From the NCBI RefSeq assembly GCF_024753565.1, contig NZ_JANTPT010000002.1, forward strand, positions 62,001 to 126,000: a stretch of 64,000 nucleotides of DNA. The letters are read 5' to 3'. The position numbers and the translations under genes are program-made. Positions 4,116 to 40,475 of this stretch are shown in pieces; the stretch's first letter is position 1, and the number at the start of each line of letters is the position of its first letter. This stretch comes from Mechercharimyces sp. CAU 1602 (lineage in GTDB: Bacteria > Bacillota > Bacilli > Thermoactinomycetales > JANTPT01). The notes beneath the pieces were generated by a model, which searched no databases, was not told the origin of the DNA, and saw nothing but the letters and a program-made list of their open reading frames with translations.

Positions 4116-5615
4116 TTGAATCCGATCATCGTCCTTTACTCCACCTATCTCGGGGGAAGCTCGGCTGACTGTGGAAATGCCATCACTTCCGACGAAGCCG
4201 GTTTCACCTATATCACAGGGTTGACAGATAGCACAAACTTTCCCGTCACATCCGGCGCTTTTCAAACCATTTTTCCTGACGCTTGTAGTGTCTTTGTAGC
4301 CAAGTTAAATCAATCCGGTTCAGGGATCGTTTACGCCACCTATCTCGGGGGTGAAAGAGCAGTAAATATAGGGAGTGCGATCGCTGTCGACGATGAGAAC
4401 TGTGCCTATGTAACTGGGGAAACAGGCTCAACTCAATTTCCTGTATCGACAAATGCCTTCCAGTCACAATACCCTGGCGGCGACGCCTCTGCTTTTGTCA
4501 GTAAGCTTAATGCAACAGGTACCTCCCTCGTCTTCTCCAGTTACTTAGGTGGAAATCAAAATGACTTTGGTAACGGGATCGCAGTGGATAAAGAGAAAGC
4601 CACTTATGTGACTGGCATAACGGCATCATCAAATTTTCCAGTCACGAGTTCCTCCCTGCAAACCCAGTTTAGCGGTGGCGGGTTTGATGCTTATGTAACA
4701 AAGATCAATCAGGCAGGCCGCTCCCTTCTTTACTCCACCTTTCTCGGTGGAACGAAAGAAGACTTTGGTTTCGCGATCGCTCTCGATGAAAATGGATCAG
4801 CCTATATAACTGGGGAAACATGCTCCACCAACTTCCCTACCACGACAGGTGCGTTTCAAACGCAATTTGCAGGACAAGGAAATTCCAATGCTTTTGTCAG
4901 TAAAATAGATGCCACGGGTTCCCAATTCAACTATTCTTCATTCCTCGGGGGAACAAGCCGAGATTACGGAGCGGGAATCGCTGTCGATGTTACAGGGGCC
5001 GCCTATGTAACCGGTGGCACTCAATCTGGTAACTTCCCCATCTCCTCCTCAGCGTTTCAAACGCAATTGAATGCAATTGAAAGTGCGTTTGTCACCAAAG
5101 TAAACCCTAACGGATCTCAACTCGCCTACTCCTCCTTTCTAGGAGGAACCTTTGTAAATGAAGGGAACGGTATCCAAGTGGATGCGCAGGGGCAAGCATG
5201 GGTGACAGGATCGACAGAATCAATCGATTTCCCCGTTACCCCTACAGCCTTTCAGCGAACACAACGGGGGGACACCAGTGCCTTTCTCTCTCAAGTGAAT
5301 CTAACGGGAAGTAAATTGCTCTACTCCACCTATATCGGCGGTTCCCGAGTCACGATGGGAAGAGGGGTTGGGATTGATAGCATGGGCTCCGCTTATGTAA
5401 CAGGCGATACCACCTCCACTAACTTTCCTACCACACCTGGTGCCCTAGAAGAAACGTTTCAAAGTGCCATTGATACTCCTGACGCTTATGTAATCAAAAT
5501 AGGAACCTTTACACCTGTTGGAATAACAGGTGCCACTGGTGCCACTGGCGAACAAGGGATGCGTGGTCCACGGGGAGCACGGGGGGTGAGAGGAGAGAGT
5601 GGAAGCGGGAGATAA
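4116..5615 (+). CDS. SBBP seven-bladed beta-propeller protein with collagen-like tail (propeller-only form)
   Basis: The TTG start is supported by GGGAGG, with the GGAGG core 8 nt upstream. The 499-residue protein begins directly in the first propeller repeat and lacks the roughly 190-residue N-terminal domain of its longer paralogues. Seven repeats of about 52-63 residues follow the pattern YST(Y/F)LGG..D.G..IAVD..G.AYVTG.T.S.NFPVT.GAFQT, enough for one closed seven-bladed propeller. The sixth repeat has Trp (AWVTG) where the others have Tyr. The C-terminus carries about nine Gly-X-Y triplets rich in Arg, a collagen-like tail. No signal peptide or membrane segment is present. It leads a run of four same-strand paralogues. 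Function is unknown; a spore-surface filament role is inference. Confidence 0.85.
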   Translation: MNPIIVLYSTYLGGSSADCGNAITSDEAGFTYITGLTDSTNFPVTSGAFQTIFPDACSVFVAKLNQSGSGIVYATYLGGERAVNIGSAIAVDDENCAYVTGETGSTQFPVSTNAFQSQYPGGDASAFVSKLNATGTSLVFSSYLGGNQNDFGNGIAVDKEKATYVTGITASSNFPVTSSSLQTQFSGGGFDAYVTKINQAGRSLLYSTFLGGTKEDFGFAIALDENGSAYITGETCSTNFPTTTGAFQTQFAGQGNSNAFVSKIDATGSQFNYSSFLGGTSRDYGAGIAVDVTGAAYVTGGTQSGNFPISSSAFQTQLNAIESAFVTKVNPNGSQLAYSSFLGGTFVNEGNGIQVDAQGQAWVTGSTESIDFPVTPTAFQRTQRGDTSAFLSQVNLTGSKLLYSTYIGGSRVTMGRGVGIDSMGSAYVTGDTTSTNFPTTPGALEETFQSAIDTPDAYVIKIGTFTPVGITGATGATGEQGMRGPRGARGVRGESGSGR

Positions 5616-5733
5616 TCCATTCTTAGTATCTCATATGACAAGCACTTGATTGCTTCATTCGTTCTGAAACAAGCCGGCTTTTGCATAATCCCGTAGGAGA
5701 GTCTTTGATACCTATAGAAGGGATGATATTCCA

Positions 5734-7743
5734 TTGAAGAAAAAAGCAACACTTCAACTCCCCCCTCTCTATATACTTCAACATAACCATCTTCGGCTTC
5801 TCTGTTACAAAAACCATGTGGTATTCCAGACGGGCATTTCCACCTCATCAACCCCAGAGCTATCCTTACACTTTCATAAACCTGCTGATTCTCTCTGTTC
5901 ATCTCCCGTACGAGAAAAAAATTACATCACCTACCCTCAACTTTGGCAGAAGATTGACGCTCGCTTTTATTTAGATTCAGAACATTTTAAATATGAATTT
6001 ATTGTTCATCCAGGAGCCAATCCCAATCACATTCGACTTTCTTACTTCGGAGTAACCTCATATACTCTCCACTCGGATGGGGAACTAATGCTTCTCACCC
6101 CTGCAGGATATTGGCATGAAAAAAAACCTATCAGCTTTCAAAGAGTCACAAATGATGAGGCACTCACTATCCCCACATCGTTTGTTCTTCATCCTGACAA
6201 AACAATCGGCTTTCTCTTAGAAGATTATCATTCCGATCTCCCGCTCATCATTGATCCGATCGTGTTTTACTCTACTTATCTGGGTGGAATGCGGGTGGAT
6301 GAGGCTACCGATATTGCCGTTGACCAGTCAGAATCCGCATATGTAACAGGGTTTACTGAATCGGATAATTTCCCGATCACTTCGGGTGCCTTTCAAACAA
6401 TCTTAGCAGGAGATTTTAGCATCTTTGTCACAAAGTTTAACCAAACTGGAAGCTCACTCGTCTACTCTACTTTTATCGGGGGCAATATTTTTGACGGCGC
6501 CAACGCCATAACCCTCGATGATATTGGAGCTGCCTATGTAACTGGCGAGACCAGTTCCACTGATTACCCTGTCACTTCAGGAGCACTCCAAACTACTGTG
6601 GGGGGATCGTTTGTTACAAAGCTCTCTCCTGACGGCTCTTCTCTCCTTTACTCCACTTATTTTGGCGGTCCAAGTTTCATCACACAGGGATGCGACATCC
6701 TCACTGATAGTGCAGGCAACGCCTATCTAACTGGGACCGCAGGTGAGAATTTCACCGTTACCAGCGGTGCCTTCCAAACCATCCTCAAAGGTCCGCGTGA
6801 CGCCTTTATAAGTAAGTTAAACGCGACGGGAAACTCGCTCATCTACTCTACCTTACTCGGAGGAGGCGGACTTAATGTAGTTAACGAAGGGTCAGCCATC
6901 GCGCTTGACAAGTCTGGTAATGTTTTTGTGACCGGTAGTACCAGTTCCACTCTTTTTCCTGTTACCAGCCAAGCCTTTCAAACGATCAATCCCTCCTCTT
7001 CTCCCTTCTCCAACTCTGTTTTTGTGACCAAGTTAAATGCTGAGGGAACATCACTTCTCTATTCCACTTACCTTGGAGGAGAATTAGAGGATAATGGGAC
7101 AGGGATTGCGATCGATCCTTTCGGTTCCGCTTATATAACCGGTGAAACGGCATCCCGAAACTTCCCCACTACCGCAGGTGCGTTTCAAAGAGAAAATGAA
7201 AGTTCAGCCGCCTTCATCACAAAATTTTCCCCTAGCGGATCCAGATTAGTTTACTCAACCTTTCTTGGTGACAGCAGTGTAGGTGTTGATATTGTATTGG
7301 ATCGTTTTTTCAACGCTTGGATAGTAGGCTTTGTAGGTGTAGACAATTTTCCTGTTACCGATAATGCCTTCCAGCGAGTACGTGAAGGTAACTTTACGAA
7401 TATATTTCTCACCCATCTCAACTTTGCAGGTTCTGGCTTGCTTTTTTCCACTCTCTATGGGGGAAGCTCCGAAAATATGGGAGCGGCCATCGCTCTTGAC
7501 TCTGCACAACGAGTCTACGTTACAGGACCTACCACTTCCGCTAATTTTCCCATCACACCCGGTGCCTTTCAAAGTCAATATCGGTCTGATATTGCCACAG
7601 AAGATTCTTTTGTTTTCAAAGTTGGCTCGCTCATGCCTGTAGGGCCGACAGGTGCAAGCGGAGCAACAGGAGCCCAAGGGAAACGCGGCCCACGGGGAGC
7701 ACGCGGCCCACGCGGAGCAGGTGGGGATATTATTGAGTCTTAA
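5734..7743 (+). CDS. SBBP beta-propeller protein with N-terminal domain and collagen-like tail
   Basis: The 669-residue protein starts at TTG with a modest AAGGGA site 11 nt upstream, so the start is less certain than its neighbours'. Residues 1 to about 175 form the beta-rich domain that commonly precedes SBBP repeats (DUF7948-like, from memory), ending in the junction LIIDPIVFYSTYLGG. Seven propeller repeats follow to about residue 635; blade 6 has NAWIVG in place of the usual Tyr and is divergent. The tail has nine Gly-X-Y triplets with Arg in the third position and ends in an acidic DIIES. No signal peptide is seen. A 20-bp gap to the next paralogue suggests co-transcription. Confidence 0.85.
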   Translation: MKKKATLQLPPLYILQHNHLRLLCYKNHVVFQTGISTSSTPELSLHFHKPADSLCSSPVREKNYITYPQLWQKIDARFYLDSEHFKYEFIVHPGANPNHIRLSYFGVTSYTLHSDGELMLLTPAGYWHEKKPISFQRVTNDEALTIPTSFVLHPDKTIGFLLEDYHSDLPLIIDPIVFYSTYLGGMRVDEATDIAVDQSESAYVTGFTESDNFPITSGAFQTILAGDFSIFVTKFNQTGSSLVYSTFIGGNIFDGANAITLDDIGAAYVTGETSSTDYPVTSGALQTTVGGSFVTKLSPDGSSLLYSTYFGGPSFITQGCDILTDSAGNAYLTGTAGENFTVTSGAFQTILKGPRDAFISKLNATGNSLIYSTLLGGGGLNVVNEGSAIALDKSGNVFVTGSTSSTLFPVTSQAFQTINPSSSPFSNSVFVTKLNAEGTSLLYSTYLGGELEDNGTGIAIDPFGSAYITGETASRNFPTTAGAFQRENESSAAFITKFSPSGSRLVYSTFLGDSSVGVDIVLDRFFNAWIVGFVGVDNFPVTDNAFQRVREGNFTNIFLTHLNFAGSGLLFSTLYGGSSENMGAAIALDSAQRVYVTGPTTSANFPITPGAFQSQYRSDIATEDSFVFKVGSLMPVGPTGASGATGAQGKRGPRGARGPRGAGGDIIES

Positions 7744-7763
7744 AATCCGTATAGGAGGTTACT

Positions 7764-9863
7764 ATGATTACGACAACAGCAAGGCAGATCCCTAATGAGC
7801 GCAACCTTGACATCAGAGGTGCAGACAATCTACTTTCCTCCCAGCCCTTTCCTACTATAGATGCTGCGCACTCTTATCCAGTCACATCTCACTCTTCATT
7901 TCGATGTGTCTTCCATCCCGAGTACGTCACCTTACTGTTTCCGACAACGACAACCACACTTCAACTTCGCTTTCTCGCCCCCAACCCTGAAGTCATCCTG
8001 ACAAACTCATCCAATCTATCCGAAAATCCCTTCGCATCTGCTACTGAGATCTTGTACCACGATCTATGGCCTGGTATTACAGCTCGCTTCCATGTAACAA
8101 ACAGACGACTAAAATACGAGTTTATCGTAAGTCCTCGTGCCGATCTTGACGATATTTGCCTTTCCTACCACGGTGCTGATCACCTCTACCTTCACCCCTC
8201 GGGTGATCTTCATCTCTATACGGCCCATGGCATGCTCGTAGAAAAAAAACCGGTAAGTTTCCAACCCCCTCATAAGACGGAGATCAACACCTGCTTCAGC
8301 CTAGATAACAAACAGCAGATTCGCTTTGTTCTAGAGGAGGAAGTGGATCGTTCCCTGCCACTAGTGATCGACCCAGTCATCTTTTACTCCACCTATCTAG
8401 GGGGGAGGGGTAGCGATACTGGAATGGGAATCGCCGTCGATCGCTCTGGATTTTCTTATGTAACAGGGAGCACCCAGTCCCGAAATTTCCCTGTCACTAG
8501 TGGTTCATTCCAAACCTCCTATCCTGGGGGAACGTTTAGTACATTTGTCACAAAAATAAATCAAAGCGGCACCTCACTCGTCTATTCCACATTCCTCGGG
8601 GGGAGAGAAAGTGATGTAGCAAACGCTATCCGTGTCAATTCCGATGGAGAAGCATATGTTACGGGAGTTACCAGCTCTACGAATTTCCCCATTACTTCAG
8701 GTGCCTTTCAAACCATCTTCGACAGTATTGACTCTTTAGCTTTCGTCACAAAGCTTACTGCCACCGGCTCTTCTCTTCTCTTTTCCACCTACCTCGGCGG
8801 AGATAATAGCAATGTGGGTCAGGGAATCGCACTGGATCAACAAGGATTTTCTTATGTAGCCGGCACAACTGCCTCTGACAATTTCCCTGTGACCAGCGGC
8901 GCCTTCCAAACACAACAAACGGGTTCTTTTAGTGCTTTCGTCACCAAACTAAACTTGACTGGAACTTCCCTCCTCTATTCCACCTACCTAGGTGGAAGTG
9001 AAGTTGATGAAGGCTTTGCTCTCACCGTGGATAACAATGGGTCTGCCTATGTCACTGGGGAAACCTGTTCTCCTGATTTCCCCGTCACCTCATCCGCCTT
9101 TCAAACAATCTTTGGGGGTGGACTAGAAGATGCCTTTATCACAAAGTTACATCCCAGCGGTCGTTCATTGGTCTATTCCAGTTACCTAGGTGGCTCTTCA
9201 CGTGACATTGGCGTTGCCATCGCCATCGATCCAGCCGGATCTGCTTATATAACGGGAGGAACGGAATCGGATAACTTCCCTGTGACCAGCGGTGCCTTTC
9301 AATCCATCGCTAGCGGATTTGAAACTGCTTTTATTACGAAAGTTAATCCCACTGGGACCGCCCTCTCTTATTCCACTCTCCTCGGGGGAAGCGGCACAGA
9401 ACAAGGAAATGGAATTGCTGTAGACTCCTTTGGCAATGCATGGATCGCCGGGGATACCGAATCGGATAACTTCCCAGTTACAGCCGATGCGTTTCAAAAT
9501 CAATTGATGGGAATAACCGATGCTTTTTTTTCTCTGGTTAGCTATGCAGGCACCGGGCTTCTGTTCTCTACCTACTATGGGGGATCTAACACTGACCAAT
9601 CTTTTGCACTGGCAATTGATCCCCAAGATCGTATTTATGCGACGGGACAGACCGAATCTCCTAACTTCCCTATAACTCCGGGGGCCTTTCAATCCATGTT
9701 TGACTCTGCCCCTACCACTACGGATGCGTTTGTCGTCAAAATAGGTTTTGACTCCCCTCCAGGGGTAACAGGTGCCACCGGTCCTACAGGCGCTGTCGGT
9801 CCTCGCGGCCCTCGTGGAGCGCGAGGGGCACGCGGAAAGTCTAATAATGAGGAAGGGGTATAG
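7764..9863 (+). CDS. SBBP beta-propeller protein with N-terminal domain and collagen-like tail
   Basis: The ATG is preceded by AGGAGG. The 699-residue protein has the N-terminal beta-rich domain up to about residue 205 (ending LVIDPVIFYSTYLGG), then seven SBBP repeats, then a proline-bearing linker and nine Gly-X-Y triplets. The last triplets are GPR/GAR-rich, and a short acidic end follows. Blade 6 reads DSFGNAWIAGDTES, nearly identical to the same blade of the next gene. No secretion signal is present. Its TAG stop is directly followed by the ATG of the next paralogue, so the two are very likely translationally coupled. Confidence 0.88.
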   Translation: MITTTARQIPNERNLDIRGADNLLSSQPFPTIDAAHSYPVTSHSSFRCVFHPEYVTLLFPTTTTTLQLRFLAPNPEVILTNSSNLSENPFASATEILYHDLWPGITARFHVTNRRLKYEFIVSPRADLDDICLSYHGADHLYLHPSGDLHLYTAHGMLVEKKPVSFQPPHKTEINTCFSLDNKQQIRFVLEEEVDRSLPLVIDPVIFYSTYLGGRGSDTGMGIAVDRSGFSYVTGSTQSRNFPVTSGSFQTSYPGGTFSTFVTKINQSGTSLVYSTFLGGRESDVANAIRVNSDGEAYVTGVTSSTNFPITSGAFQTIFDSIDSLAFVTKLTATGSSLLFSTYLGGDNSNVGQGIALDQQGFSYVAGTTASDNFPVTSGAFQTQQTGSFSAFVTKLNLTGTSLLYSTYLGGSEVDEGFALTVDNNGSAYVTGETCSPDFPVTSSAFQTIFGGGLEDAFITKLHPSGRSLVYSSYLGGSSRDIGVAIAIDPAGSAYITGGTESDNFPVTSGAFQSIASGFETAFITKVNPTGTALSYSTLLGGSGTEQGNGIAVDSFGNAWIAGDTESDNFPVTADAFQNQLMGITDAFFSLVSYAGTGLLFSTYYGGSNTDQSFALAIDPQDRIYATGQTESPNFPITPGAFQSMFDSAPTTTDAFVVKIGFDSPPGVTGATGPTGAVGPRGPRGARGARGKSNNEEGV

Positions 9864-11357
9864 ATGAACATCTTTTTCTCCACCTTTCTCGGTGGATTTG
9901 AGAGTGATTGTGGATTGGGGATTGCGGTCGATCGCAGTAATTTCTCCTACATTACAGGTAGTACCAATTCATCAGATTTCCCTATCACTAGTGGCGCCTT
10001 TCAAACCATCTATCCAGGTGGACAGTTTAGTATCTTTCTTAGCAAAATGAACCCAACAGGTACTTCTCTTGTCTACTCCACCTTCTTGGGGGGCAATATG
10101 AGTGATATTGCCAATAGCATCAGCATCGATCGCGAAGAAGCCGTCTACTTAACAGGTGTGACCGACTCCTCTAATTTTCCTGTTACTTCTGGCGCTTTTC
10201 AAACACGGGTAAATGACATCGATGCGTTTGTGACAAAGATCTCTCCCACGGGTGACTCGTTACTCTATTCTACCTTTCTTGGGGGAAGTAATTTTGATAG
10301 TGCTAATGGCATTGCCGTTGATACTGAGGGGTTTGCTTATCTTACGGGTTTTACTGCTTCGAACAACTTTCCTACTACCAGCGGTGCGCTGCAAACGGGC
10401 TTAAAGGGAAGCACTAGCGCTTTCGTCAGTAAATTAAATCCCACTGGCACTACCCTTAGTTACTCCACTTATCTTGGTGGTAATGGCATGGATAATGGGG
10501 AGTCTATTGTGCTCAATGATGCTGGTGAGGCGTTCCTCACTGGCTTTACCTCATCAACCGATTTCCCCATTACAACAAATGCCATCCAAACCCAATTTGC
10601 TGGTGGTTCAGAGGATGCCTTCATCAGTAAAATAAATGCCACCGCTACTTCACTCCTCTACTCCACCTATTTAGGAGGGCGTAGCAGTGACATCGGGGTT
10701 AGTATTACGATCGACTCCACAGGTGCCGCTTATGTGACGGGAGGAACAGGATCCTCCAACTTTCCCATCACATCGGGTGCCTTCCAAACCCAACTGGCTA
10801 CGATCATCAGTGGCCAAAATGCCTTTGTCAGCAAACTAAACCCCACTGGATCGCAACTCATCTATTCCACTTTTTTGGGTGGGAATCGCGTCGATCAAGG
10901 CAACGGAATTGTATTGGACTCATTTGGAAACGCATGGATCGCAGGAGATACCGAATCAACTAACTTTCCTGTAACTTCAGATGCCTTTCAGTTACGCTTG
11001 CTCGGTATTACAAGTGCCTTTTTCACTCAACTCAGTTTTGCGGGCACAGGTGTCCTCTACTCCACATACTATGGTGGATCGATCGTCGATCGATCCACTG
11101 CCGTCGCTATCGACCGGCAACAACGCATCTATGCTACCGGTGAAACTGACTCTAGCGACTTTCCTATCACTCCAGGAGCCTTTCAATCACAACTGCGCAC
11201 CAGTCGGACTTCTGGCGATGCGTTTGTCGTCAAGCTAGGTCCTGTCATTGCCACCGGAACGACGGGTCCGACGGGAGCAACAGGCCCTACTGGACCGCGT
11301 GGACCGCGGGGGGCGCGCGGTCCACGCGGACGAACATCCGCAGAAGAGACATCCTAA
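9864..11357 (+). CDS. SBBP beta-propeller protein with collagen-like tail (propeller-only form)
   Basis: The 497-residue protein starts at the base after the previous stop codon, with a GAGGAAGGGG Shine-Dalgarno inside the upstream gene. Like the first gene of the cluster it has no N-terminal domain: residue 4 is already in blade 1. Seven repeats follow, with Trp in blade 6 (NAWIAG), and then nine Gly-X-Y triplets ending in a short acidic tail. Coupling to the full-length gene upstream suggests that a long and a short form are made together, perhaps as partners in one assembly (inference). No terminator with a T-run was found directly after it on this strand. Confidence 0.88.
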   Translation: MNIFFSTFLGGFESDCGLGIAVDRSNFSYITGSTNSSDFPITSGAFQTIYPGGQFSIFLSKMNPTGTSLVYSTFLGGNMSDIANSISIDREEAVYLTGVTDSSNFPVTSGAFQTRVNDIDAFVTKISPTGDSLLYSTFLGGSNFDSANGIAVDTEGFAYLTGFTASNNFPTTSGALQTGLKGSTSAFVSKLNPTGTTLSYSTYLGGNGMDNGESIVLNDAGEAFLTGFTSSTDFPITTNAIQTQFAGGSEDAFISKINATATSLLYSTYLGGRSSDIGVSITIDSTGAAYVTGGTGSSNFPITSGAFQTQLATIISGQNAFVSKLNPTGSQLIYSTFLGGNRVDQGNGIVLDSFGNAWIAGDTESTNFPVTSDAFQLRLLGITSAFFTQLSFAGTGVLYSTYYGGSIVDRSTAVAIDRQQRIYATGETDSSDFPITPGAFQSQLRTSRTSGDAFVVKLGPVIATGTTGPTGATGPTGPRGPRGARGPRGRTSAEETS

Positions 11358-11380
11358 TATCGCTAGAAATCAACCTTATT

Positions 11381-11420
11381 TCAGCTGAAGCTGAGCCATC
11401 GAGGAATCAGGTAAAGTTGA
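11381..11420. repeat. Dispersed intergenic repeat, copy a
   Basis: The CTGAAGCTGA...GGAATCAGGTA segment resembles the copy at 37758-37790. Part of that copy also recurs at 29741-29756. All three copies lie next to SBBP-type genes. Confidence 0.45.
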
Positions 11421-11504
11421 GTTTTGGCTCTACCAAATAAGATTAGTCTGTTAGTCTGTTTATTATGTAAAAATGAGGATCTAAGCAGATTTTAAAAAGA
11501 AAAT

Positions 11505-11536
11505 GAAGGGCCATGGCGTTTTCGCCATGGCCCTTC
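11505..11536 (-). terminator. Terminator of the MMPL transporter gene
   Basis: A 14-bp perfect stem (11505-11518 with 11523-11536) has a 4-nt loop. Read on the minus strand it is followed by a T-rich tail. It may also stop plus-strand SBBP transcripts, though no T-run follows on that side. Confidence 0.75.
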
Positions 11537-11579
11537 TTCAACTACCTTACATCCTCTATTCATTCGTTTGTTGGCTTCG

Positions 11580-14699: not shown

Positions 14700-14801
14700 G
14701 GTATTACACCGCCTCCATTATCAACTTACCCATACTTATCATAACCAATAAACCTAAAATAAAAGTGAACCAAACCTAAAAAAAAATAAAGATGAAATCA
14801 T

Positions 14802-17142: not shown

Positions 17143-17152
17143 AAATCTAGTT

Positions 17153-29645: not shown

Positions 29646-29671
29646 TTTATCCTCCTTTTATCCTTTCTTTC

Positions 29672-29700
29672 TATTTTATGTAAAATATGAAGTTGCTGTG
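29672..29700 (-). promoter_or_regulatory. Candidate sigma-K promoter of the 29235 gene
   Basis: On the minus strand CACA (29697-29700) and CATAAAATA (29672-29680) are separated by 16 nt. They match mACm and CATAnnnTA exactly, just upstream of the ribosome site. Confidence 0.6.
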
Positions 29701-29726
29701 ATCCTAATATTAACTTGATAGGCGCG

Positions 29727-29756
29727 ATCAAACTCGTTCTAGCTTAAGCTGAAACA
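29727..29756. repeat. Dispersed intergenic repeat, copy b
   Basis: ATCAAACTCG and CTTAAGCTGAAACAT are both identical to the copy at 37741-37772, with a 6 versus 7 nt gap between the two blocks. Confidence 0.55.
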
Positions 29757-29757
29757 T

Positions 29758-29783
29758 AAAAAACCCCCGATTTCTCGAGGGTT
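29758..29783 (-). terminator. Terminator of the 29835 SBBP gene
   Basis: A 9-bp stem with one mismatch is followed by a T-run on the minus strand. The same 26-nt sequence recurs after tRNA-Ala at 42096. Confidence 0.75.
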
Positions 29784-29834
29784 GCTTCACTTAAGATGCA
29801 TCTACTCACCATACATCTCCTTCTATCATCATGC

Positions 29835-31913: not shown

Positions 31914-31944
31914 GATCTCTACACCTCACTCATCACTAATGATT

Positions 31945-31973
31945 CATGTTATGAAGAAAACCGTCTTCCAGTG
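31945..31973 (-). promoter_or_regulatory. Possible sigma-K-like promoter of the 29835 gene
   Basis: CATAACATG (31945-31953) lies 16 nt after CACT (31970-31973) on the minus strand. The same arrangement is conserved in the duplicated upstream region at 34264-34292. Neither element is a perfect consensus. Confidence 0.35.
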
Positions 31974-32070
31974 TCAAAAACACTCCTTGCTATCCTCCAA
32001 GCTGACTGTCCCAACAACAACGTACATCGGATCCTTGTAACTGCTATGGACAGTCGAGGGAGCTAATCAG

Positions 32071-32118
32071 CACAAACAGAGCAACCCTCCTCCCCAAATA
32101 GGATTAGCTTAGTTGCTC
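32071..32118 (-). terminator. Probable terminator of the 32151 SBBP gene
   Basis: Minus-strand GAGCAAC (32112-32118) pairs with GTTGCTC (32079-32085) across a long loop, followed by a T-rich TGTTTGTG. The structure is duplicated at 34401-34447. Confidence 0.5.
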
Positions 32119-32150
32119 CCTTCGTTTACACACATTATTAATGTACCTTT

Positions 32151-34232
32151 CTACAATCCCGTCTCTCCTCCCCCTGCACCCCGCGGTCCCCTGGGTCCCC
32201 TGGGACCACGCCGTCCACGCGGACCGCTTATACCCTGAGCTCCTGTCGAACCGGTGGCTCCTGTCGGACCAGTCGGGCCCGTGGCTCCTACAGCAGTTAA
32301 TTGAGAGAACTTTGTCACAAACACACTCGGATTTCCTGGGGCAGTAGAAGGGTTAAGGGTTTGAAACGCTCCAGGCAGAGTTGGAAACCCCGTTCCTGCA
32401 GGTCCTGCTACATATACATCGTCCTGGTTATTCCGATCTACTACAATGCCATTTCCAATATCAAGTTCCACTCCCCCCAAGTACGTAGAATACATAATTC
32501 CCCGTCCCGATGAACTTACTTGAGTAACAAACACGTCCTGACTTCCACCTAAGTTAACTTGGTAGGCATCCGAAGTAAGTGGAAAATCAGTGGAAGAGGT
32601 TCTACCGGTTACCCATGCATTGAAAAAAGAATCGAGAGACAACCCTATCCCAAAGTCATTCCCACTCCCTCCTAGATAAGTAGAGAAGAGAAGATTGGAA
32701 CCTGTCGCATTCAGTTTGGTAACAAAAGCATCCCTTAAACCCGCACCAAATACCGTTTGAAAGGCAGTAGGGGTAACAGGAAAGTTAGTTGAATTCGTAT
32801 CCCCTGTCACATACGCCAATCCAAACGAGTCCACCATAACCTCACTGCCTGAGTCTATCCCACTCCCGCCTAAGAGGGTGGAGTAGGTAAGGGTTGACCC
32901 AGAAGCACTTAGCTTACTTATAAATGCACTCGTGCTTAAGCCAAGGAGCACTGTCTGAAAAGCATTGGTGGAGACCGGAAAATTGGTTGAACTCGTACTT
33001 CCAGTCACATAAGCATTCTCACTACTATCTAAAGCAATACCTAGTCCTGTATCAGCACCATTGCCACCGAGAAAAGTAGAATAAACTAAGGAGCTACCTT
33101 GTACATTAAATTGCGTAACAAAAGCGTCAGAAGAACCTCCACCACCAAATACCGTTTGAAAGGCACCCGAGGTGATTGGGAAATCAGAAGAAGTAGCACC
33201 TGTCACATACGCATTTCCACTAGCATTGATAGCTAATCCGTTTATAAGTGTACCTTGCCCCAGAAGCGTAGAATAAATCAAACTGGTACCCGTCTCATTT
33301 AGCTTTGTCACAAATCCACTAGTGGAACCCACAATGGTCTGAAATGCTCCTGACGTGACTGGAAAATCTATAGATAACGTAAACCCACCCACATAGGCAT
33401 TATTACTAGTATCTACTTGAATGCTATTCCCCCGGTCAGCCGAGTTTCCTCCTAAATAGGTGGAGTAGAGAAGGGAACTTCCTACTGAATTTAGTTTGGT
33501 AACAAACGCATCTGTTAACCCTGGAAGTGTCGTATTGTTTATTGTTTGAAACGCGCCGCTAGTCACCGGGAAATCGGTTGAGTTCGTTTGTCCAGTAATA
33601 TACGCATTGCCTGAAGCATCAACCGCTATCGCAAGCCCGTTATCAGCACCTGTAGATCCTCCAATAAAGGTGGAGTAGCGCACATTGGGATCAATCACCA
33701 ACAGCTGGCGGCGATCATAAGAAGTGACGGTGCGAAAGCCAAACCCTCCATCTGGATAGCAGGTATACTCGGTTTCAATGCGGACACTTCCGTCCTGCTG
33801 AAAGCTGACTGGCTTCTCCTCGCGCACTACCCCACTTTTTGTGCCCACAAGAAGGTGGCCGTTTACGTCAATCCCCAAGGGCGTCCCCCCTGTATAGCGC
33901 AAGCGGATGTCTGTGACTGCCGCTTCCGGATGAACGAGACAGTCATACTTAAACTGCTGCTCACTCCACGAAAAGAGAAGGTCAATTCCTTTCCATACCT
34001 GCTCATACATGACTTGATGAAACCTTATCTTTCCACTTGCCATTCGCTTTGGTACCCGGTTGCGATGCGCGTGGCAAAACTGAAGCTGTACCCATGTATC
34101 CGATGCCAACTGCAAAGCCACCCCATGGGAATGAAACACAAAGCGCATCCCCCCGCTCTCACCTTCTATTCCGACGACACACCGATCCTGTACACCTCGC
34201 CTGTAGTGGTACTCATCCACGCTTACACGCAC
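32151..34232 (-). CDS. SBBP beta-propeller protein with N-terminal domain and collagen-like tail
   Basis: The start at the GTG of 34232 matches the ribosome-site spacing (GAGGTG, 8 nt) of its tandem copy; a GTG three codons earlier would sit on top of the site. The 693-residue protein has the N-terminal beta-rich domain, seven SBBP repeats and 13 or so Gly-X-Y triplets, ending GAGGGETGL. The N-domain differs from the 29835 copy at only scattered residues, and the tails are nearly the same, so this is a recent duplication. Blade 6 carries NAWVTG. No signal peptide is present. Confidence 0.88.
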   Translation of the reverse strand: MRVSVDEYHYRRGVQDRCVVGIEGESGGMRFVFHSHGVALQLASDTWVQLQFCHAHRNRVPKRMASGKIRFHQVMYEQVWKGIDLLFSWSEQQFKYDCLVHPEAAVTDIRLRYTGGTPLGIDVNGHLLVGTKSGVVREEKPVSFQQDGSVRIETEYTCYPDGGFGFRTVTSYDRRQLLVIDPNVRYSTFIGGSTGADNGLAIAVDASGNAYITGQTNSTDFPVTSGAFQTINNTTLPGLTDAFVTKLNSVGSSLLYSTYLGGNSADRGNSIQVDTSNNAYVGGFTLSIDFPVTSGAFQTIVGSTSGFVTKLNETGTSLIYSTLLGQGTLINGLAINASGNAYVTGATSSDFPITSGAFQTVFGGGGSSDAFVTQFNVQGSSLVYSTFLGGNGADTGLGIALDSSENAYVTGSTSSTNFPVSTNAFQTVLLGLSTSAFISKLSASGSTLTYSTLLGGSGIDSGSEVMVDSFGLAYVTGDTNSTNFPVTPTAFQTVFGAGLRDAFVTKLNATGSNLLFSTYLGGSGNDFGIGLSLDSFFNAWVTGRTSSTDFPLTSDAYQVNLGGSQDVFVTQVSSSGRGIMYSTYLGGVELDIGNGIVVDRNNQDDVYVAGPAGTGFPTLPGAFQTLNPSTAPGNPSVFVTKFSQLTAVGATGPTGPTGATGSTGAQGISGPRGRRGPRGPRGPRGAGGGETGL

Positions 34233-34263
34233 GATCTCCACACCTCACTTATCACTAATGATT

Positions 34264-34292
34264 CATGTTATGAAGAAAACCTTCTTCCGGTG
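34264..34292 (-). promoter_or_regulatory. Possible sigma-K promoter of the 32151 gene
   Basis: Minus-strand CACC (34289-34292), 16 nt and CATAACATG (34264-34272) fit mACm and CATAnnnT, with a mismatch at the last base. The element is conserved in the neighbouring duplicate. Confidence 0.45.
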
Positions 34293-34400
34293 TCAAAAAC
34301 ACTCCTTGCTATCCTCCAAGCTGACGGTCCCGACAAGAATCCCCCTCAAATCTCCGTTACATAAGCACCCTTCTACGGGGCAGTCGGGGGAGCGAACCAG

Positions 34401-34447
34401 CACAAAAAGAGCAACCCTCTCCCCCAATAGGATCAGCTTAGTTGCCC
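34401..34447 (-). terminator. Probable terminator of the 34477 SBBP gene
   Basis: Minus-strand GGGCAAC (34441-34447) pairs with GTTGCTC (34409-34415), with one weak pair, followed by TTTTTGTG. It is the second copy of the structure at 32071-32118. Confidence 0.5.
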
Positions 34448-34476
34448 CCTTCGTTTGCACATTATCATGTACCTTT

Positions 34477-36564
34477 CTACAATCCCGTCTCTCCTCCCCC
34501 TGTACCCCGCGGACCTCTGGGTCCCCTGGGACCACGTCGCCCACGCGGGCCGCTTATACCCTGAGCTCCTGTCGAACCGGTGGCTCCTGTCGGACCTGTC
34601 GGACCTGTCGGGCCTGTTGCACCAACGGAAGTGAGCTGCCCTACTTTTATGACGAAGGCATTCGTTGATCCCACCAATTGACTTTGAAATGCTCCAAAGG
34701 TAACGGGAAAATTAATTGATCCCGTACTCCCTGTCATATAAGCATTCTCCTCTGTATCGACTGCTATCTGAGAACCTCTATCCGTCCCACTTCCCCCTAG
34801 ATATGAAGAAAAAGAGATTCCCCCGCCTGAGAAGCTCATTAGTGAAACAAATGCATCCACTCCACCAGCATTACTATCTTGAAAGGCATCCGATGTAACT
34901 GGAAAGTTAGTGGAAGTAGTTTGACCACTCACCCATGCTGTGCCAAAAGAGTCAACGGCAATGCCAACACCCGTATCACTCCCATTTCCACCTAAAAAGG
35001 TAGAATAAACAAGTGCACTGCCTAGAGGATTCAACTTTGTTACAAAAGCTGTGATACTTCCTAGAAATACGGTTTGAAATGCATTGTTAGTTATTGGGAA
35101 ATCAGTAGATTGTGCTGCCCCTGTCACGTAGGCATTATTTCTTCCATCTAAATCAATGCCTAAACTCGTATCCGAGACATTCCCACCCAAATAAGTGGAG
35201 TAAATCAATGAAGAGCCTGCAGAATTAACCTTGCTTACAAATACATTCCGCCCGCCATTTAATATTGTCTGAAAAGATCCCGGTGTCGTTGGAAAATTGG
35301 TTGAGGTTGTTTCTCCAGTCACATACGCTTGATTGTCACTATCCACTACAATATCTCTGCCGTCATCATTTCCATTTCCTCCTAAAAAAGTAGAATAAAC
35401 CAGAGCCGTTCCCGTTGTATCTAATTTAGAGATAAATGCATCTTGAGGCCCTCCCCCAAACTGTGTTTGAAAAGCACCTGTTGTTACAGGGAAATCATTA
35501 GCACCCGTAATCCCAGTCACATAGGCATTTCCCAGTTCATCTACAGTAATTCCTCTTCCTATTTCCGATCCATTTTGACCGCCCAGGTAAGTAGAATAGA
35601 CAAGGGAAGTCCCTGTTACATTTAATTTTGTTGCGAATGCAGATTGATTGCCAGGCAACACCGTCTGAAAAGCGTTAGAGGTAACGGGAAAGTTAGTAGA
35701 ACTAGTCAACCCGGTTATATAAGCATTTTCTGACCCATCAACAGCAATACTTGCCCCCGAGTTACTATCTGTTCCACCTAGAAAAGTAGAATATATAAGG
35801 GAGTTACCCGACACACTAAACTTACTGATAAATGCGTTGGAACCATCTGTCCCACCAGTGTATATCGTCTGAAAAACACCTGTTGTCACAGGGAAATCTG
35901 AGGATATAGTACTCCCTGTCACGTAAGCATTTAAATTCCTATCAACAGCAATCCCACTCCCACTATCAGATTCACTTCCCCCTAAGTAAGTAGAATAAAG
36001 GACGAGAGGATCTATCACCAATAGGTTATCTTTCTTATAACCCCCATCTATAATAAAACCAATTGTCCCATCGTCTGCTAGTTGAAACTGAGTTGCAATC
36101 CCCGTTCTCTTCCCCTTCACCATTTGATAACTTACCGGATTTGGTTCAAATATCACCCCATTAGACGTATATACAAACAAGTCTCCTCTTTCACTTAATG
36201 TCACATCGCCTCCACCCTCATACCGCAATCGAATATCTCCCACACAAGCGCCTGGATAAACCACTATATCGTATTTCAACTGAGCTCCATCTCCATAGAA
36301 AACCACATCCATCCCCCGCCAGACACCCTTATAGACTACGCGTTTATACTCTTGCTCGGCTAGATCGAGCCCCTCCGGTACAATTCCCTCAATCGCACCA
36401 ACAAATCGCAAGATCACTTCATCAGATCCACCTAACGTAAATTGTATGCCCTCTGACGAGAACATACTCTGGATTCCCTGCCCTGCTGCAACATAAGCAC
36501 CCTTCCCATTCTCAGTGCTCCGCCTAAACCGAAGTGATTGCCTCTCGGTTTTCACCTTTTTCAT
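34477..36564 (-). CDS. SBBP beta-propeller protein with N-terminal domain and collagen-like tail
   Basis: GGAGGGATAGTG precedes the ATG; 695 residues. The N-terminal domain (to about residue 185, ending LLVIDPLVLYSTYLGG) is more like the 38394 paralogue (shared AYVA.GQGI and KY DVVVYPGA-type segments) than the 29835/32151 pair. Seven SBBP repeats follow, with TAWVSG in blade 6. The tail has about 14 Gly-X-Y triplets and ends GTGGGETGL like the two genes downstream, so the 3' end seems homogenised among these three. No signal peptide is visible. Confidence 0.88.
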   Translation of the reverse strand: MKKVKTERQSLRFRRSTENGKGAYVAAGQGIQSMFSSEGIQFTLGGSDEVILRFVGAIEGIVPEGLDLAEQEYKRVVYKGVWRGMDVVFYGDGAQLKYDIVVYPGACVGDIRLRYEGGGDVTLSERGDLFVYTSNGVIFEPNPVSYQMVKGKRTGIATQFQLADDGTIGFIIDGGYKKDNLLVIDPLVLYSTYLGGSESDSGSGIAVDRNLNAYVTGSTISSDFPVTTGVFQTIYTGGTDGSNAFISKFSVSGNSLIYSTFLGGTDSNSGASIAVDGSENAYITGLTSSTNFPVTSNAFQTVLPGNQSAFATKLNVTGTSLVYSTYLGGQNGSEIGRGITVDELGNAYVTGITGANDFPVTTGAFQTQFGGGPQDAFISKLDTTGTALVYSTFLGGNGNDDGRDIVVDSDNQAYVTGETTSTNFPTTPGSFQTILNGGRNVFVSKVNSAGSSLIYSTYLGGNVSDTSLGIDLDGRNNAYVTGAAQSTDFPITNNAFQTVFLGSITAFVTKLNPLGSALVYSTFLGGNGSDTGVGIAVDSFGTAWVSGQTTSTNFPVTSDAFQDSNAGGVDAFVSLMSFSGGGISFSSYLGGSGTDRGSQIAVDTEENAYMTGSTGSINFPVTFGAFQSQLVGSTNAFVIKVGQLTSVGATGPTGPTGPTGATGSTGAQGISGPRGRRGPRGPRGPRGTGGGETGL

Positions 36565-36599
36565 TCACTATCCCTCCATTGGATGTCGCTATCATGTTT

Positions 36600-36636
36600 T
36601 ATCCTATGTTCAACATCCAATTTGGATATGGGCAAA
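36600..36636 (-). promoter_or_regulatory. Conserved promoter block with sigma-K-like -10
   Basis: Minus-strand CATAGGATA (36600-36608) matches CATAnnnTA. A block that includes TTTGCCC and a TCCAAATTGGA palindrome upstream of it is shared with 40511-40548. No mACm is seen at 16 nt. Confidence 0.45.
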
Positions 36637-36777
36637 ATCACACCATCCCCTCTCATTCACCCTCAGCTAAATCACTTTATCCCTCTTCTTTTAAGTGAGG
36701 ACCCTCCAAACAGTCATTACCTGACACAGAGATAGAACACTCCACCGCTCCGAAATATATTTTGTAAACATTCTTTA

Positions 36778-36798
36778 AAATCAGATACTACCTGATTT
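36778..36798 (-). terminator. Possible terminator of the DUF1259 pair
   Basis: AAATCAG (36778-36784) pairs with CTGATTT (36792-36798) around a 7-nt loop. The T-run on the minus strand is short. Confidence 0.45.
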
Positions 36799-36827
36799 CT
36801 CGAAAGAACCACACGTAGGTTCATAAC

Positions 36828-37247
36828 TTAACACGCAGATTGGAACTTTCGGAACCTAAGTGTCTGGAGAGCTTCCCTAGCTTTCAAAGCAAAGCGAATG
36901 GGGTTCTCTATTGATTGGGCGTGAATATACATGATGCTAGGACGATCGAAGATCCAGTGTTTGTGCATCGCCGCAATCGAGACATTATTTTTAAGATACG
37001 AGCGAACAAAAGAATTTACCTCTCCTTCAAACATCCCTGACTCACTCGTATTTAGTGACCGACCCCGGCAGTCGAGTGAGCCGAATGAAAATGCAAAAGA
37101 CTGTACATATGGGCTTCTCGTTTCTTGTCCTAAAATCGTGGTAGGAACATTTCGGAAAAGAAAAACAAAACAAGTCCCATCGATAATCTGAGGATTCCCT
37201 CCTAAGATCTTTCCATACACTTTACAAATGTCAGCAAAAGAACTCAT
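36828..37247 (-). CDS. DUF1259 (LppY/LpqO-type) protein
   Basis: The 139-residue protein shows the DUF1259 core: an acidic/hydrophobic 'E(V/L)NSFVRSYLKNN' helix, then MHKHWIFDRPSIMYIHAQS and a C-terminal NPIRFALKAREAL helix. These match the family's ALHNH....P..MY.H..G.G.P..LA..L..AL pattern. Actinobacterial members are lipoproteins; this one has no signal. It overlaps its paralogue upstream by an ATGA. Function is unknown. Its place between two SBBP-collagen genes suggests a link to them (inference). Confidence 0.7.
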   Translation of the reverse strand: MSSFADICKVYGKILGGNPQIIDGTCFVFLFRNVPTTILGQETRSPYVQSFAFSFGSLDCRGRSLNTSESGMFEGEVNSFVRSYLKNNVSIAAMHKHWIFDRPSIMYIHAQSIENPIRFALKAREALQTLRFRKFQSAC

Positions 37248-37714
37248 CTTCCTCTCTCCTCAATCTTTATATATTGTCTTTTGTGGACGGGTCGGGCAGA
37301 AAGGATATTAACAAAATTCCTGTTTTTTAATACTTGAAACACTCCTCTGCTTTTCAGAGCAAAGACAATGGGATTTTCTATCGACTGCCAATGAATATAG
37401 ATAACTAACGGTTTTTGAAATACCCAATGATTCTGGATCGGTGCGAGGGTAAAGTTGTTCTGCCGCAAAAATTGCAGAACAGGCTCCAGTTCCTCTTGCA
37501 ATAGCCCCAATACACCCAGATTAAGAGCAGTTGCATCACGATTCACCTTCCCAAAGGTAAAGATAGCAGGATATATTTGTGGACCTGCTGCCCTTCTATT
37601 CATTATGGTATTTGGAATAATCCTCAATAGCTGAACCCCACAGTTCCCATTTATAATCTTGGGCGCAAATCCAAGTACTTCCCCAAAGGATTGACACACT
37701 TGCTGATAACCCAT
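37244..37714 (-). CDS. DUF1259 (LppY/LpqO-type) protein
   Basis: The start at 37714 has GGAGG 8 nt upstream; the GTG at 37723 lies inside the ribosome site and is rejected. The 156-residue protein has the family core IQNHWVFQKPLVIYIHWQSIENP followed by a FALKSRGVF helix, and LQEELEPVLQFLRQNN before it. It is a diverged paralogue of the next gene, with which it is translationally coupled. No signal peptide, no recognisable catalytic motif beyond the conserved His and acidic residues. Confidence 0.7.
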   Translation of the reverse strand: MGYQQVCQSFGEVLGFAPKIINGNCGVQLLRIIPNTIMNRRAAGPQIYPAIFTFGKVNRDATALNLGVLGLLQEELEPVLQFLRQNNFTLAPIQNHWVFQKPLVIYIHWQSIENPIVFALKSRGVFQVLKNRNFVNILSARPVHKRQYIKIEERGR

Positions 37715-37740
37715 GAAATTCACCTCCGGAAAATTATGTT

Positions 37741-37790
37741 ATCAAACTCGATTTGGACTTAAGCTGAAACATCAGGGAATCAGGTAGAGC
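37741..37790. repeat. Dispersed intergenic repeat, copy c
   Basis: The first part (37741-37772) matches copy b at 29727-29756. The second part (37758-37790) matches copy a at 11381-11420. It thus links the two. Confidence 0.5.
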
Positions 37791-37881
37791 TTTTCCCCAA
37801 CTGATTGGAAAAACCCACTAATGAGAAGTAGGTGAAAACTATTACGAAAGATCAAAATATATCATTCCGATTCAGTTTCAT

Positions 37882-38151
37882 TTAGTATATGTATTTATTT
37901 TTTGTAAGTATGTGCTCATTCCACTTCTTATCTCTTTCATCATTCATACCATTGACCCATTTTAACATCGCTGTCTTCGATACGCTTATTTGCTCCGCTA
38001 TCCAACTTGCCATAATCTCATCAAATCCATCCATCCCGACAACAGCCCTTGTAACTGATTCTCTATCCAATCCATTAGATCGTCATCCGACCGCTCGTAT
38101 CTCATACGCCATGATCTCAATCAACCTGTGCACATTTACATAGATAGTCAT
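37882..38151 (-). pseudogene. Small gene interrupted by one in-frame TGA
   Basis: From an ATG at 38151 one frame runs MTIYVNVHRLIEIMAYEI, meets TGA at 38082-38084, then continues in the same frame for 67 more codons as GLDRESVTRAVVGMDGFDE and IMASWIAEQISVSKT to 37882. The helical, hydrophobic-patterned sequence on both sides looks like one 89-codon protein. I do not recognise a family. Either a recent nonsense mutation or two tiny ORFs would explain it. The wider gap 37791-38393 holds nothing else but a terminator. Confidence 0.45.
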
Positions 38152-38210
38152 CGTCCTTTCGTTTGATCATCTTCCTCACTACCACTCACTCTGAAAAAAA
38201 GGCATTAGAA

Positions 38211-38231
38211 AAGCATCCACACCGGATGCTT
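38211..38231 (-). terminator. Terminator of the 38394 SBBP gene
   Basis: An 8-bp perfect stem (38211-38218 with 38224-38231) is followed on the minus strand by a T-rich tail. Confidence 0.7.
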
Positions 38232-38393
38232 CACATCTTTAAATTAGTTCACGGGATCACTATTTCCTTATTTTACATGAAAATCATTTCCCCTACGACA
38301 TATCATCCTCCCACCTGCCTAAACGACTCAATTTACTCGCCACTTCTTCTCATTATAATTTCTCCCCATCCACACCTTGCAGTGATGCTTTCT

Positions 38394-40475
38394 CTACCCG
38401 TTAAACTCTCCTCCATCTCCACGCAAACCTCTTGCTCCTCTTGGACCACGCCGTCCTCTTAGTCCTCTTGGTCCTATTGGACCTTGTGCTCCAGTGGTTC
38501 CTGTTGGACCCGTCGCTCCTGTCGGACCGGTAGCACCGACGGAGGTAAGCGATCCTACTTTCGTGACGAAAGCGCTATTAATCCCTGGTGAGAAATTGGT
38601 CTCCTGAAACGCTTGAGAAGTGACTGGAAAATCCGTTGAAGCTGTAAAGCCAGCAAAATAAGCAGATCCCGCTGAATCTAGCACCACACCATTTCCACTT
38701 TCATTCTGACTACCCCCAAGGTAAGAGGAGAAAGAAATTCCCTGTCCAGAGTAACTCATTTGTGTGACAAAGGCATCAAAACTTCCCGCTAAGCTATCTT
38801 GAAAGGCATCCGTGGTAAGCGGAAAATCAGTAGAATTGGTATTCCCTATCACCCATGCCCCTCCAAACGAGTCTACAGCAATACCTCCTCTGCCCAAGGG
38901 ATTTTCTCGCTGACTTCCACCTAAGTAAGTGGAATAGACAAGCGCACTCCCACCTGGATTCAACTTTGTTACAAAAGCAGATTCAGGTCCAGGTCGAGTA
39001 ACTTGAAATGCATTATTTGTTGTTGGAAAGTCCACAGAAAATGTAAATCCTGTCACATACGCATAGCTAGCTTCATCCAAATCAATGCCTATACCGCCAT
39101 CTTGATTGGAACCACCTAGAAAAGTGGAATAGACGAGTGATGATCCAGTAGCATTCAACTTCGTAATAAATGCGTCAATCACTCCTGCAAACGTAACTTG
39201 AAAAGCGCCTGTAGTTATAGGGAAATCCGTTGACTGAGTGGAGCCAGTAACATAAGCTTGATCGCTATCATCCACAATGATATCACGTCCACTATCAATC
39301 GAACTCCCTCCTAAAAATGTAGAATAGACTAGATTACTTCCTGTTGTATTTAATTTAGTTACAAATGCATCTGAACTCCCTCCCAAAATCGTTTGAAATG
39401 CATTTGTTGTCGTTGGGAAGTCAGTGGATTGTGCTTCTCCAGTCACATAAGCATTGCCCTCCCCATCAATTGCTATGGCAGAACTTGAATCTAGCAAACT
39501 TGTACCTCCTAAATAAGTAGAATAGACAAGGGAAGTACCTGGGGCATTCAATTTCGTTACAAATATTGATCTTGGCATCGTCTGAAAGGCTCCAGAAGTT
39601 ACAGGAAAGTTACTCGAAAAAGTAACTCCCGTCACATAAGCACGATTAGCACTGTCCACAACGATACTTACTCCTAAATCATCAAGATCTCCTCCAATGT
39701 AGGTAGAGTAAATAAGGGAGGTACCACCCTTATTAAATTTGCTAACAAACACATCAGCAACACCCATAAACATGGTTTGAAAAGCCCCTGTTGTCACAGG
39801 AAAATCTGTGGAAGCCGTCTGTCCTACTACATATGCACTTTGTGCTTTATCCACCGCAATATCTTGCCCAGTATCTACTTCTGAGCCCCCAAGGTAAGTG
39901 GAATAAAAGACGACCGGATCAATGACAACCATTTGAGTAGAATCGTACTTCTCTTTATCTATTCCAAATTGAATAGACCCATCTTTGTTGAGCTCAAATT
40001 GTGTGCGAATGTACTTTTTTCCCTGTTTTGTCCACTGAAAGCTAATTGGTTTTTTTTCGCAGTAAACACCCTCATCTGTATAAATATATAAATCACCATA
40101 CTCGCCCAGGGTCACTCCATTTCCACCCTCATATTTCAGCCGAACATCTTCAACACGCGCCCCTGGATAAACAACCACATCATACTTCAGCCGCTCTTCA
40201 TCACTTAAGAACACCACATCAATCCCCTGCCATACGCTCTCATAGATGACACGTTTATATCCTCGTCCACTTAGCTCTAACCCTCTGGGAGCCACCCCAT
40301 CATGTGCATCCACAAACCGCAGTACCAACTCATCAGACCCCTCTATCGTAAACCGTACTCCCTCTGGCAGAAACGTATACAGGATTCCTTGCCCTTCTGC
40401 AACATAAGCATCCCTTTCACAACTGTCCCCTTGACACGCTTTGAACTGCAATTCAGCCTTCTGTATATTCTTCAT
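38394..40475 (-). CDS. SBBP beta-propeller protein with N-terminal domain and collagen-like tail
   Basis: The start at 40475 follows GGAGG by 8 nt; the ATG at 40490 is directly upstream of the site itself and is rejected. The 693-residue protein has an N-terminal beta-rich domain (KYDVVVYPGARVEDVRLKYEG near 100, ending VVIDPVVFYSTYLGG) and seven SBBP repeats with GAWVIG in blade 6. About 14 Gly-X-Y triplets then end in GDGGEFNG. It is the outermost and most distinct member of the minus-strand group. No signal peptide is present. Its promoter block is shared with the 34477 gene. Confidence 0.88.
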   Translation of the reverse strand: MKNIQKAELQFKACQGDSCERDAYVAEGQGILYTFLPEGVRFTIEGSDELVLRFVDAHDGVAPRGLELSGRGYKRVIYESVWQGIDVVFLSDEERLKYDVVVYPGARVEDVRLKYEGGNGVTLGEYGDLYIYTDEGVYCEKKPISFQWTKQGKKYIRTQFELNKDGSIQFGIDKEKYDSTQMVVIDPVVFYSTYLGGSEVDTGQDIAVDKAQSAYVVGQTASTDFPVTTGAFQTMFMGVADVFVSKFNKGGTSLIYSTYIGGDLDDLGVSIVVDSANRAYVTGVTFSSNFPVTSGAFQTMPRSIFVTKLNAPGTSLVYSTYLGGTSLLDSSSAIAIDGEGNAYVTGEAQSTDFPTTTNAFQTILGGSSDAFVTKLNTTGSNLVYSTFLGGSSIDSGRDIIVDDSDQAYVTGSTQSTDFPITTGAFQVTFAGVIDAFITKLNATGSSLVYSTFLGGSNQDGGIGIDLDEASYAYVTGFTFSVDFPTTNNAFQVTRPGPESAFVTKLNPGGSALVYSTYLGGSQRENPLGRGGIAVDSFGGAWVIGNTNSTDFPLTTDAFQDSLAGSFDAFVTQMSYSGQGISFSSYLGGSQNESGNGVVLDSAGSAYFAGFTASTDFPVTSQAFQETNFSPGINSAFVTKVGSLTSVGATGPTGATGPTGTTGAQGPIGPRGLRGRRGPRGARGLRGDGGEFNG

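Follow-up and report, generated by a model that had tools for sequence, protein, structure and literature searches.

A family of some forty seven-bladed SBBP propellers with a shared arginine-rich collagen tail in Mechercharimyces sp. CAU 1602: putative spore-envelope proteins

The propeller genes of the window

The window analysed here, 64,000 nucleotides from Mechercharimyces sp. CAU 1602 (contig NZ_JANTPT010000002.1, positions 62,001 to 126,000), carries eight genes for SBBP propellers that end in a short collagen-like tail. As a first-pass annotation of the bare sequence had it, they lie in two blocks, four on the plus strand (4116-11357) and four on the minus strand (29835-40490). The outer two genes of the plus block (4116-5615, 499 residues, TTG start, and 9864-11357, 497 residues) encode a propeller and a tail without an N-domain. 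The inner two (5734-7743, 669 residues, and 7764-9863, 699 residues) and all four genes of the minus block (29835-31913, 692 residues; 32151-34241, 696 residues; 34477-36564, 695 residues; 38394-40490, 698 residues, with its start at 40490 or 40475) have half of a DUF7948 domain ahead of the propeller. Each gene is referred to below by its lowest coordinate. The 29835 gene is a near-duplicate of the 32151 gene in the family tree, and the 34477 protein was used for the structure model. The collagen search places the tails at 5520-5603, 7642-7725, 9759-9836 and 11253-11333 in the plus block, in gene order, and at 29862-29972, 32169-32288, 34495-34626 and 38406-38540 in the minus block.

All eight proteins match Pfam SBBP (PF06739), with E-values from 9.1e-38 to 4.8e-53 and whole-protein scores of 128-177 against a curated cut-off of 20.5. 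A family-derived repeat model finds seven blades in each of them, the number first proposed, at a spacing of 62-72 residues (mostly 65-66) rather than the 52-63 originally given. The optional, beta-rich N-domain of the first-pass annotation corresponds to DUF7948 (PF25778), which is matched in six of the eight and over just 115-125 of its 214 positions. A C-terminal match to collagen (PF01391) is present in all eight; because the tails are short, the curated cut-off is reached by one protein in the whole-protein search and by two in the per-place search. The 9-14 Gly-X-Y triplets counted earlier do form a short C-terminal run, which a loose count extends to 9-15.

A genome-wide family of 41

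The window holds a small part of the family. Translation of the stretches around SBBP matches gives 41 intact seven-bladed propeller genes in the genome (2.93 Mb, 11 contigs): eight in the window, 32 on contig C1 and one on contig C3. Together they take up 83,025 coding bases, or 2.83% of the genome. Seven blades, with a period of about 65 residues, are found in every one of the 41 proteins, a Gly-X-Y tail in 40 and a DUF7948 match over the cut-off in 38. The SBBP search scored the best 150 of 296 candidates; no intact member was added by the searches with DUF7948 and collagen, in which every candidate was scored (44 and 46, respectively), though a member with neither domain may escape all three. 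Besides, the DUF7948 search returned an orphan N-domain, two remnants of the domain and a pair of weak rows. As whole proteins, the members share 39-60% identity with the reference member.

Nearly all of the recognisable collagen of the genome sits on propellers. Of 45 collagen rows at E<=10, 40 are family tails; the remainder consists of one remnant, two antisense rows and a weak pair at C1:1441557-1441638. The PF01391 cut-off is passed by 22 of the 40 tail places. A DNA pattern for the tail has 46 matches in the genome and none for its reversed control, so it is not a product of chance, and 30 of the 40 tailed genes are matched.

The sole tail-less member (L015:2337-4436) has a near-full N-domain, is the outlier in the tree and adjoins a gerA-like gene (L015:653-2122) that is related to the gerA-type germination gene of the window. 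The orphan N-domain, at C1:693140-693841 (L128:703-1578), is a near full-length DUF7948 that stops right where a propeller would start.

Fold of the head and the N-domain

In an AlphaFold monomer model of the 34477 protein, the mean predicted local distance difference test (pLDDT) score is 87.6. Residues 188-641 form a closed propeller of seven four-stranded blades, mostly above pLDDT 90, in this one member of the family. The N-domain scores mostly 67-95 in the whole model and 88 when it is modelled alone. It is a beta-sandwich whose best structural matches are the luminal domain of GLMP (Z 11.3) and sandwich domains of carbohydrate enzymes (Z of about 8-10); taken alone, it has no Foldseek match at E<=0.001.

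The propeller fold is shared with CylK, a cyanobacterial alkylating enzyme (7ron, 7fh6), on which it superposes with a Z-score of 48.4 and a root-mean-square deviation of 1.7 over 390 residues, while the next unrelated chain has a Z-score of 34.9. A search of the PDB by sequence finds no propeller relative at E<=0.001, and the hits up to E<=10 are confined to designed propellers, a kinase-labelled chain and collagen peptides. For the CylK propeller, a passage of PMC8916777 describes inner loops that are long and calcium sites where the blades meet. The N-domain of CylK, a calcium beta-roll, contributes an essential Arg, whereas that of the present family is a beta-sandwich; since the N-domains differ, no common chemistry with CylK is implied. 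A catalytic cleft of the CylK type, between a calcium beta-roll and the propeller, was considered and set aside, the N-domain being a beta-sandwich and the Pfam scan of the eight window proteins reporting no RTX family.

The two-block collagen tail

The tails have a characteristic order: a block of Gly-Pro/Ala-Thr triplets is followed by a block of Gly-Pro/Ala-Arg triplets and then by a Gly-rich end with an acidic residue, which lies within the last 12 residues in 40 of 40 tails. Their 467 strict triplets have Pro (216) or Ala (141) as the main residues at X, and Arg (216) or Thr (176) at Y, which bears out the earlier remark that many third positions are Arg. At X, Arg occurs 25 times, 24 of them in Gly-Arg-Arg. 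The Thr triplets lie ahead of the Arg triplets in 36 of the 40 tails, and in 2000 rounds of shuffling the Y residues within each tail the mean number is 0.93 and the maximum 6. Strict runs are 7-21 triplets long, and the net charge is +2 to +8 per chain.

Five or more Gly-x-Arg triplets are present in 28 tails. Over the final five of them, protein identity is 87% and third-base identity at identical residues 0.34, close to the 0.29-0.32 that we calculate for random third bases from the codon counts of these tails. Conserved residues with nearly random third bases show that the tail is maintained by selection on the protein. The same third bases bear on the idea that forty dispersed copies with one common end are a shuffling antigenic repertoire, kept up by recombination between copies. 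Near-random third bases point to old copies and not to recent exchange, and so do the long branches of the family tree (median end branch 0.72 changes per column, with one near-identical pair); a repertoire of this kind is very improbable.

Arg at Y is reported, in a passage of PMC7824840, to be about equal to hydroxyproline in stabilising collagen, and it would be a sensible substitute where hydroxylation is not known. The same paper says that homotrimers with strong like charge do not form; the Arg block may therefore need an anionic partner. The tail could be a flexible cationic tag that makes no triple helix, monomeric spore-envelope proteins being held on an anionic layer by disordered, Arg-rich ends. 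The shortness of the tails, their net positive charge, their low confidence in the model and the disfavoured trimerisation of like-charged chains (PMC7824840) would all suit such a tag. It would need neither Gly at every third residue, as found in 40 of 40 tails, nor Arg at Y rather than X (216 against 25), Y being the place at which Arg lends stability to a triple helix. A purely cationic tag is therefore rather doubtful, and the chances that the tail is triple-helical appear about even.

Promoters and timing

The upstream regions of the family are enriched in one -10 element. CATANNNTA occurs at -60..-30 in 17 of the 41 family genes and in 8 of 121 neighbour genes, and 200 dinucleotide shuffles of the upstream regions give a mean of 0.45 and a maximum of 3. 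For CATANNNT the counts are 21 of 41 and 13 of 121, with a shuffle mean of 1.7. When 22 upstream regions are aligned on CATANNNT alone, a C stands at -18 in 16 of them, and 11 have AC at -19; AC at 11 other offsets tested occurs 0-2 times, and none of 13 aligned neighbours has it at -19. Four of the 41 genes closely follow another member, and some family genes may be transcribed from upstream members; leaving these four out gives 17/37 and 21/37.

The arrangement of AC, 17 bases and CATANNNTA is of the sigma-K promoter type, in which AC is an element. The strict form, AC-N17-CATANGATAA, occurs at eight places in the genome and at one for the reversed control. Three of the eight lie before family genes, one before the 5' piece of gerE, and one each before an amidase-like open reading frame (ORF), a CHRD-like ORF and an ORF of 72 residues that has no clear ribosome site; the amidase and CHRD labels are tentative. 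The bclA gene of B. thuringiensis is SigK-dependent, with the promoter CAC-N16-CATATGTTA according to a passage of PMC4750369.

In the window, the -10 element precedes all four minus-strand genes (4 of the 8). Two of these sites, both on the minus strand, have the full arrangement AC-N17-CATAACAT: 34264-34291 before the 32151 gene and 31945-31972 before the 29835 gene, with the first base of AC at 34291 and 31972, respectively. The other two are CATAGGATA sites on the same strand without AC at -19, at 36600-36608, 44 bases ahead of the start of the 34477 gene, and at 40511-40519, 44 bases ahead of the 40475 start of the 38394 gene. Among spore-former relatives, a -10-like site at -30..-65 is found, as an uncontrolled count, in 8 of the 21 ORFs that have a start; 2 further ORFs have no start. 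Two Clostridium loci (L082, Clostridium aerotolerans, and L090, Clostridium sp. 12(A)) have arrays of tail-less DUF7948-SBBP genes without signal peptides, some of them with CATANNNT 39-57 bases upstream.

The gene for sigma-K is itself split. Its three pieces (C1 390705-390899, 325469-325726 and 306862-307125; L127, L126 and L125) lie on the same strand, about 65 kb and 18 kb apart, and a large ORF adjoins the first and the third. These large ORFs look by eye like serine recombinases, and two sigK-intervening elements are apparently present within one gene. gerE is in two pieces (C1 1531501-1531641 and 1516770-1516859; L145 and L148), about 14.6 kb apart, so that sigK and gerE, both late mother-cell regulators, together show three apparent insertions. 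The split gerE is comparable to the gin element reported within B. cereus gerE in a passage of PMC5595907.

Export

The absence of a signal peptide noted in the first-pass annotation extends to the whole family: in a simple hydropathy scan (not SignalP), one of 41 N-termini exceeds the threshold, and that gene has an uncertain start codon. Outside the spore-forming Bacillota, the threshold is passed by 35 of the 42 relatives that were scored, and within them by none of five, a weak comparison as the motif caught these five alone. A missing signal peptide would fit delivery out of the mother-cell cytoplasm.

Two other fates of the proteins have to be weighed here. In most other phyla of the retrieved set, SBBP/DUF7948 proteins have a hydrophobic N-terminus (the 35 of 42 scored), which would suggest secreted or cell-wall proteins of vegetative cells; with one of 41 N-termini over the threshold and sigma-K-type promoters before family genes, the present family can hardly be of that kind, and expression in vegetative cells alone is unlikely. 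The proteins might instead be mother-cell products that form a parasporal body or an extrasporal matrix freed at lysis, which would give the same promoter timing; some spore formers are said, in a passage of PMC11952670, to embed their spores in a matrix with collagen-like proteins. The data contain no pointer to inclusions, and the small tag suggests attachment, so a product off the spore surface is improbable.

Distribution

The genome is the only one of its taxonomic family among the genomes sampled, in which its order has 42. At least one match to the family model is found in each of five of the 41 other genomes of the order, a lower bound as several genomes of the order had many candidates, of which the best 27 were scored, and the collagen tail is absent from the matches in these five. 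Among 397 further genomes sampled in the phylum, 15 have DUF7948, with at most three copies; this survey scored 7 of the 44 candidates of the present genome, whose own copy number comes from the separate, fully scored search. Among the best 80 of 575 loci and the five relatives from the order, with the tail test applied to ORFs of three or more blades, propeller and collagen are joined in just two loci, both in Paenibacillus. The arrangement called uncommon in the first-pass annotation is thus not unique, a propeller with a long Gly-X-Thr collagen being present in both of these; among the papers listed by searches of PMC, none treats an SBBP propeller joined to collagen.

The tail DNA pattern matches in 4 of the 41 other genomes of the order and in 3 of the 397 others of the phylum sample, and the ORFs read behind these matches are not SBBP proteins. 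One locus in another genome of the order (L027) encodes a long Gly-X-Thr collagen that ends in eight Gly-Pro-Arg triplets and has no propeller, and thus places Thr ahead of Arg much as the family tails do. The head is thus widespread and its union with collagen known elsewhere; what is special here is the Arg-ended tag and the forty copies.

Neighbouring genes

Between the minus-strand propeller genes of the window, at 36828-37723, lie two adjacent small ORFs, one of them DUF1259 (PF07485) and the other its BLAST relative. A third relative, at L014:732-1562, likewise adjoins propeller genes. A multicopper oxidase at L010:10028-11581, which by eye is presumably CotA-like, is found among three propeller genes. 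Clustering of the neighbour genes yields small clusters of 2-3 and no recurring partner, no search having been aimed at a glycosyltransferase or a prolyl hydroxylase, and ten neighbours selected for a Pfam scan give a multicopper oxidase, YheC/D ATP-grasp, DUF4489, DUF6143 and little more.

A proposed role in the spore envelope

Based on the promoters and the N-termini, the family probably consists of late mother-cell spore proteins. That these are proteins of the spore envelope which carry a common C-terminal collagen tag is somewhat favoured as a whole. One architecture would have been multiplied to about forty genes in this lineage, each chain having a monomeric CylK-type seven-bladed head, usually with a beta-sandwich domain before it and the shared collagen tag after it. 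Sigma-K would turn on many of the genes in the mother cell, and the proteins, without a signal peptide, would remain in its cytoplasm until they are deposited on the forming spore. The tag would then zip three chains into a short, stiff rod, in which Arg at Y would take the stabilising role of hydroxyproline and the Gly-X-Thr block would offer possible sugar sites. The tag would thus serve as a common element of assembly or anchoring, while the heads vary; that the Arg block does the anchoring is a tentative suggestion. The spore-surface function of the first-pass annotation is strengthened as to expression in the spore by the sigma-K-type promoters (17-21 of 41), the pattern at the 5' piece of gerE and the lack of a convincing signal peptide, and it is left without promoter support in the plus block. 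Nothing in the analysis indicates the filaments that were also proposed.

Several observations weigh against a late spore-envelope role with a trimeric tag. The -10 pattern is missing from about half of the 41 genes, among them the whole plus block; of the four sites in the window, two have no AC, and one of the eight strict-pattern places falls inside an ORF on the opposite strand. The promoter counts are not independent, as the genes share ancestry (the 32151 and 29835 genes being near-duplicates). As to the trimer, the tail is mostly below pLDDT 55 in the monomer model, and no trimerisation domain is recognised in the family.

A bolder version of the tag can be imagined. If the shared end lets the mother cell build mixed trimers, with three different propellers on one rod, thousands of combinations could be present on each spore, and if the Arg block folds only once an anionic spore polymer neutralises its charge, trimers would assemble as they reach the spore surface. 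That a whole protein family uses its C-terminal collagen as a sorting tag of this kind is speculative and unlikely.

Comparison with known systems

Several groups of proteins are comparable with the family. One is that of other SBBP/DUF7948 proteins, LipL53-like and many others, which have the same seven-bladed repeats and the same order of N-domain and propeller in many phyla. They are usually of low copy number and often have a hydrophobic N-terminus and other C-terminal parts. Unlike them, the present family has the C-terminal half of DUF7948 alone as its N-domain, and collagen as its tail. In two spore formers, Paenibacillus pasadenensis MER37 (L080) and P. herberti R33 (L086, two ORFs), a propeller head is likewise followed by C-terminal collagen. 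The Paenibacillus collagen is long, with Thr and without an Arg block, and one or two genes are present, as counted at the locus, compared with forty in the present genome.

The BclA-type proteins of the exosporium nap in the B. cereus group, on which the original analogy was built, share Gly-X-Thr collagen, a sigma-K-type promoter and a spore-forming host with the family, and in them, too, no secretion signal is recognised. The collagen of the family is much shorter than theirs and Arg-rich at its end, and its heads are propellers, whereas BclA-type heads are C1q-like trimers. The analogy thus holds for timing and for the Gly-X-Thr triplets, and fails for the plan of the protein: instead of an N-terminal leader, central collagen and a C-terminal trimerising head, all 40 tailed members have the propeller first and the collagen at the C-terminus. 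The Pfam scan of the eight window proteins gives no BclA-C or C1q match. Spore appendages of the F-ENA, F-Anchor and F-BclA kind offer a further comparison, as collagen-like proteins are described in a passage of PMC11952670 as fixing and tipping spore appendages; the same scan of the eight reports no DUF4183, C1q or hook peptide.

Since the parts are reversed, the family would work like a collagen-stalked spore protein and yet not be a BclA. If this reading is true, it would connect the SBBP/DUF7948 proteins of spore formers, which are widespread and unexplained, with the spore surface, provide forty short natural collagens that are based on Gly-Pro-Arg and free of hydroxyproline, and allow a direct test of a shared collagen end as a spore sorting tag. 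The family would then be a mirror image of the BclA plan, at a scale unseen in the genomes sampled.

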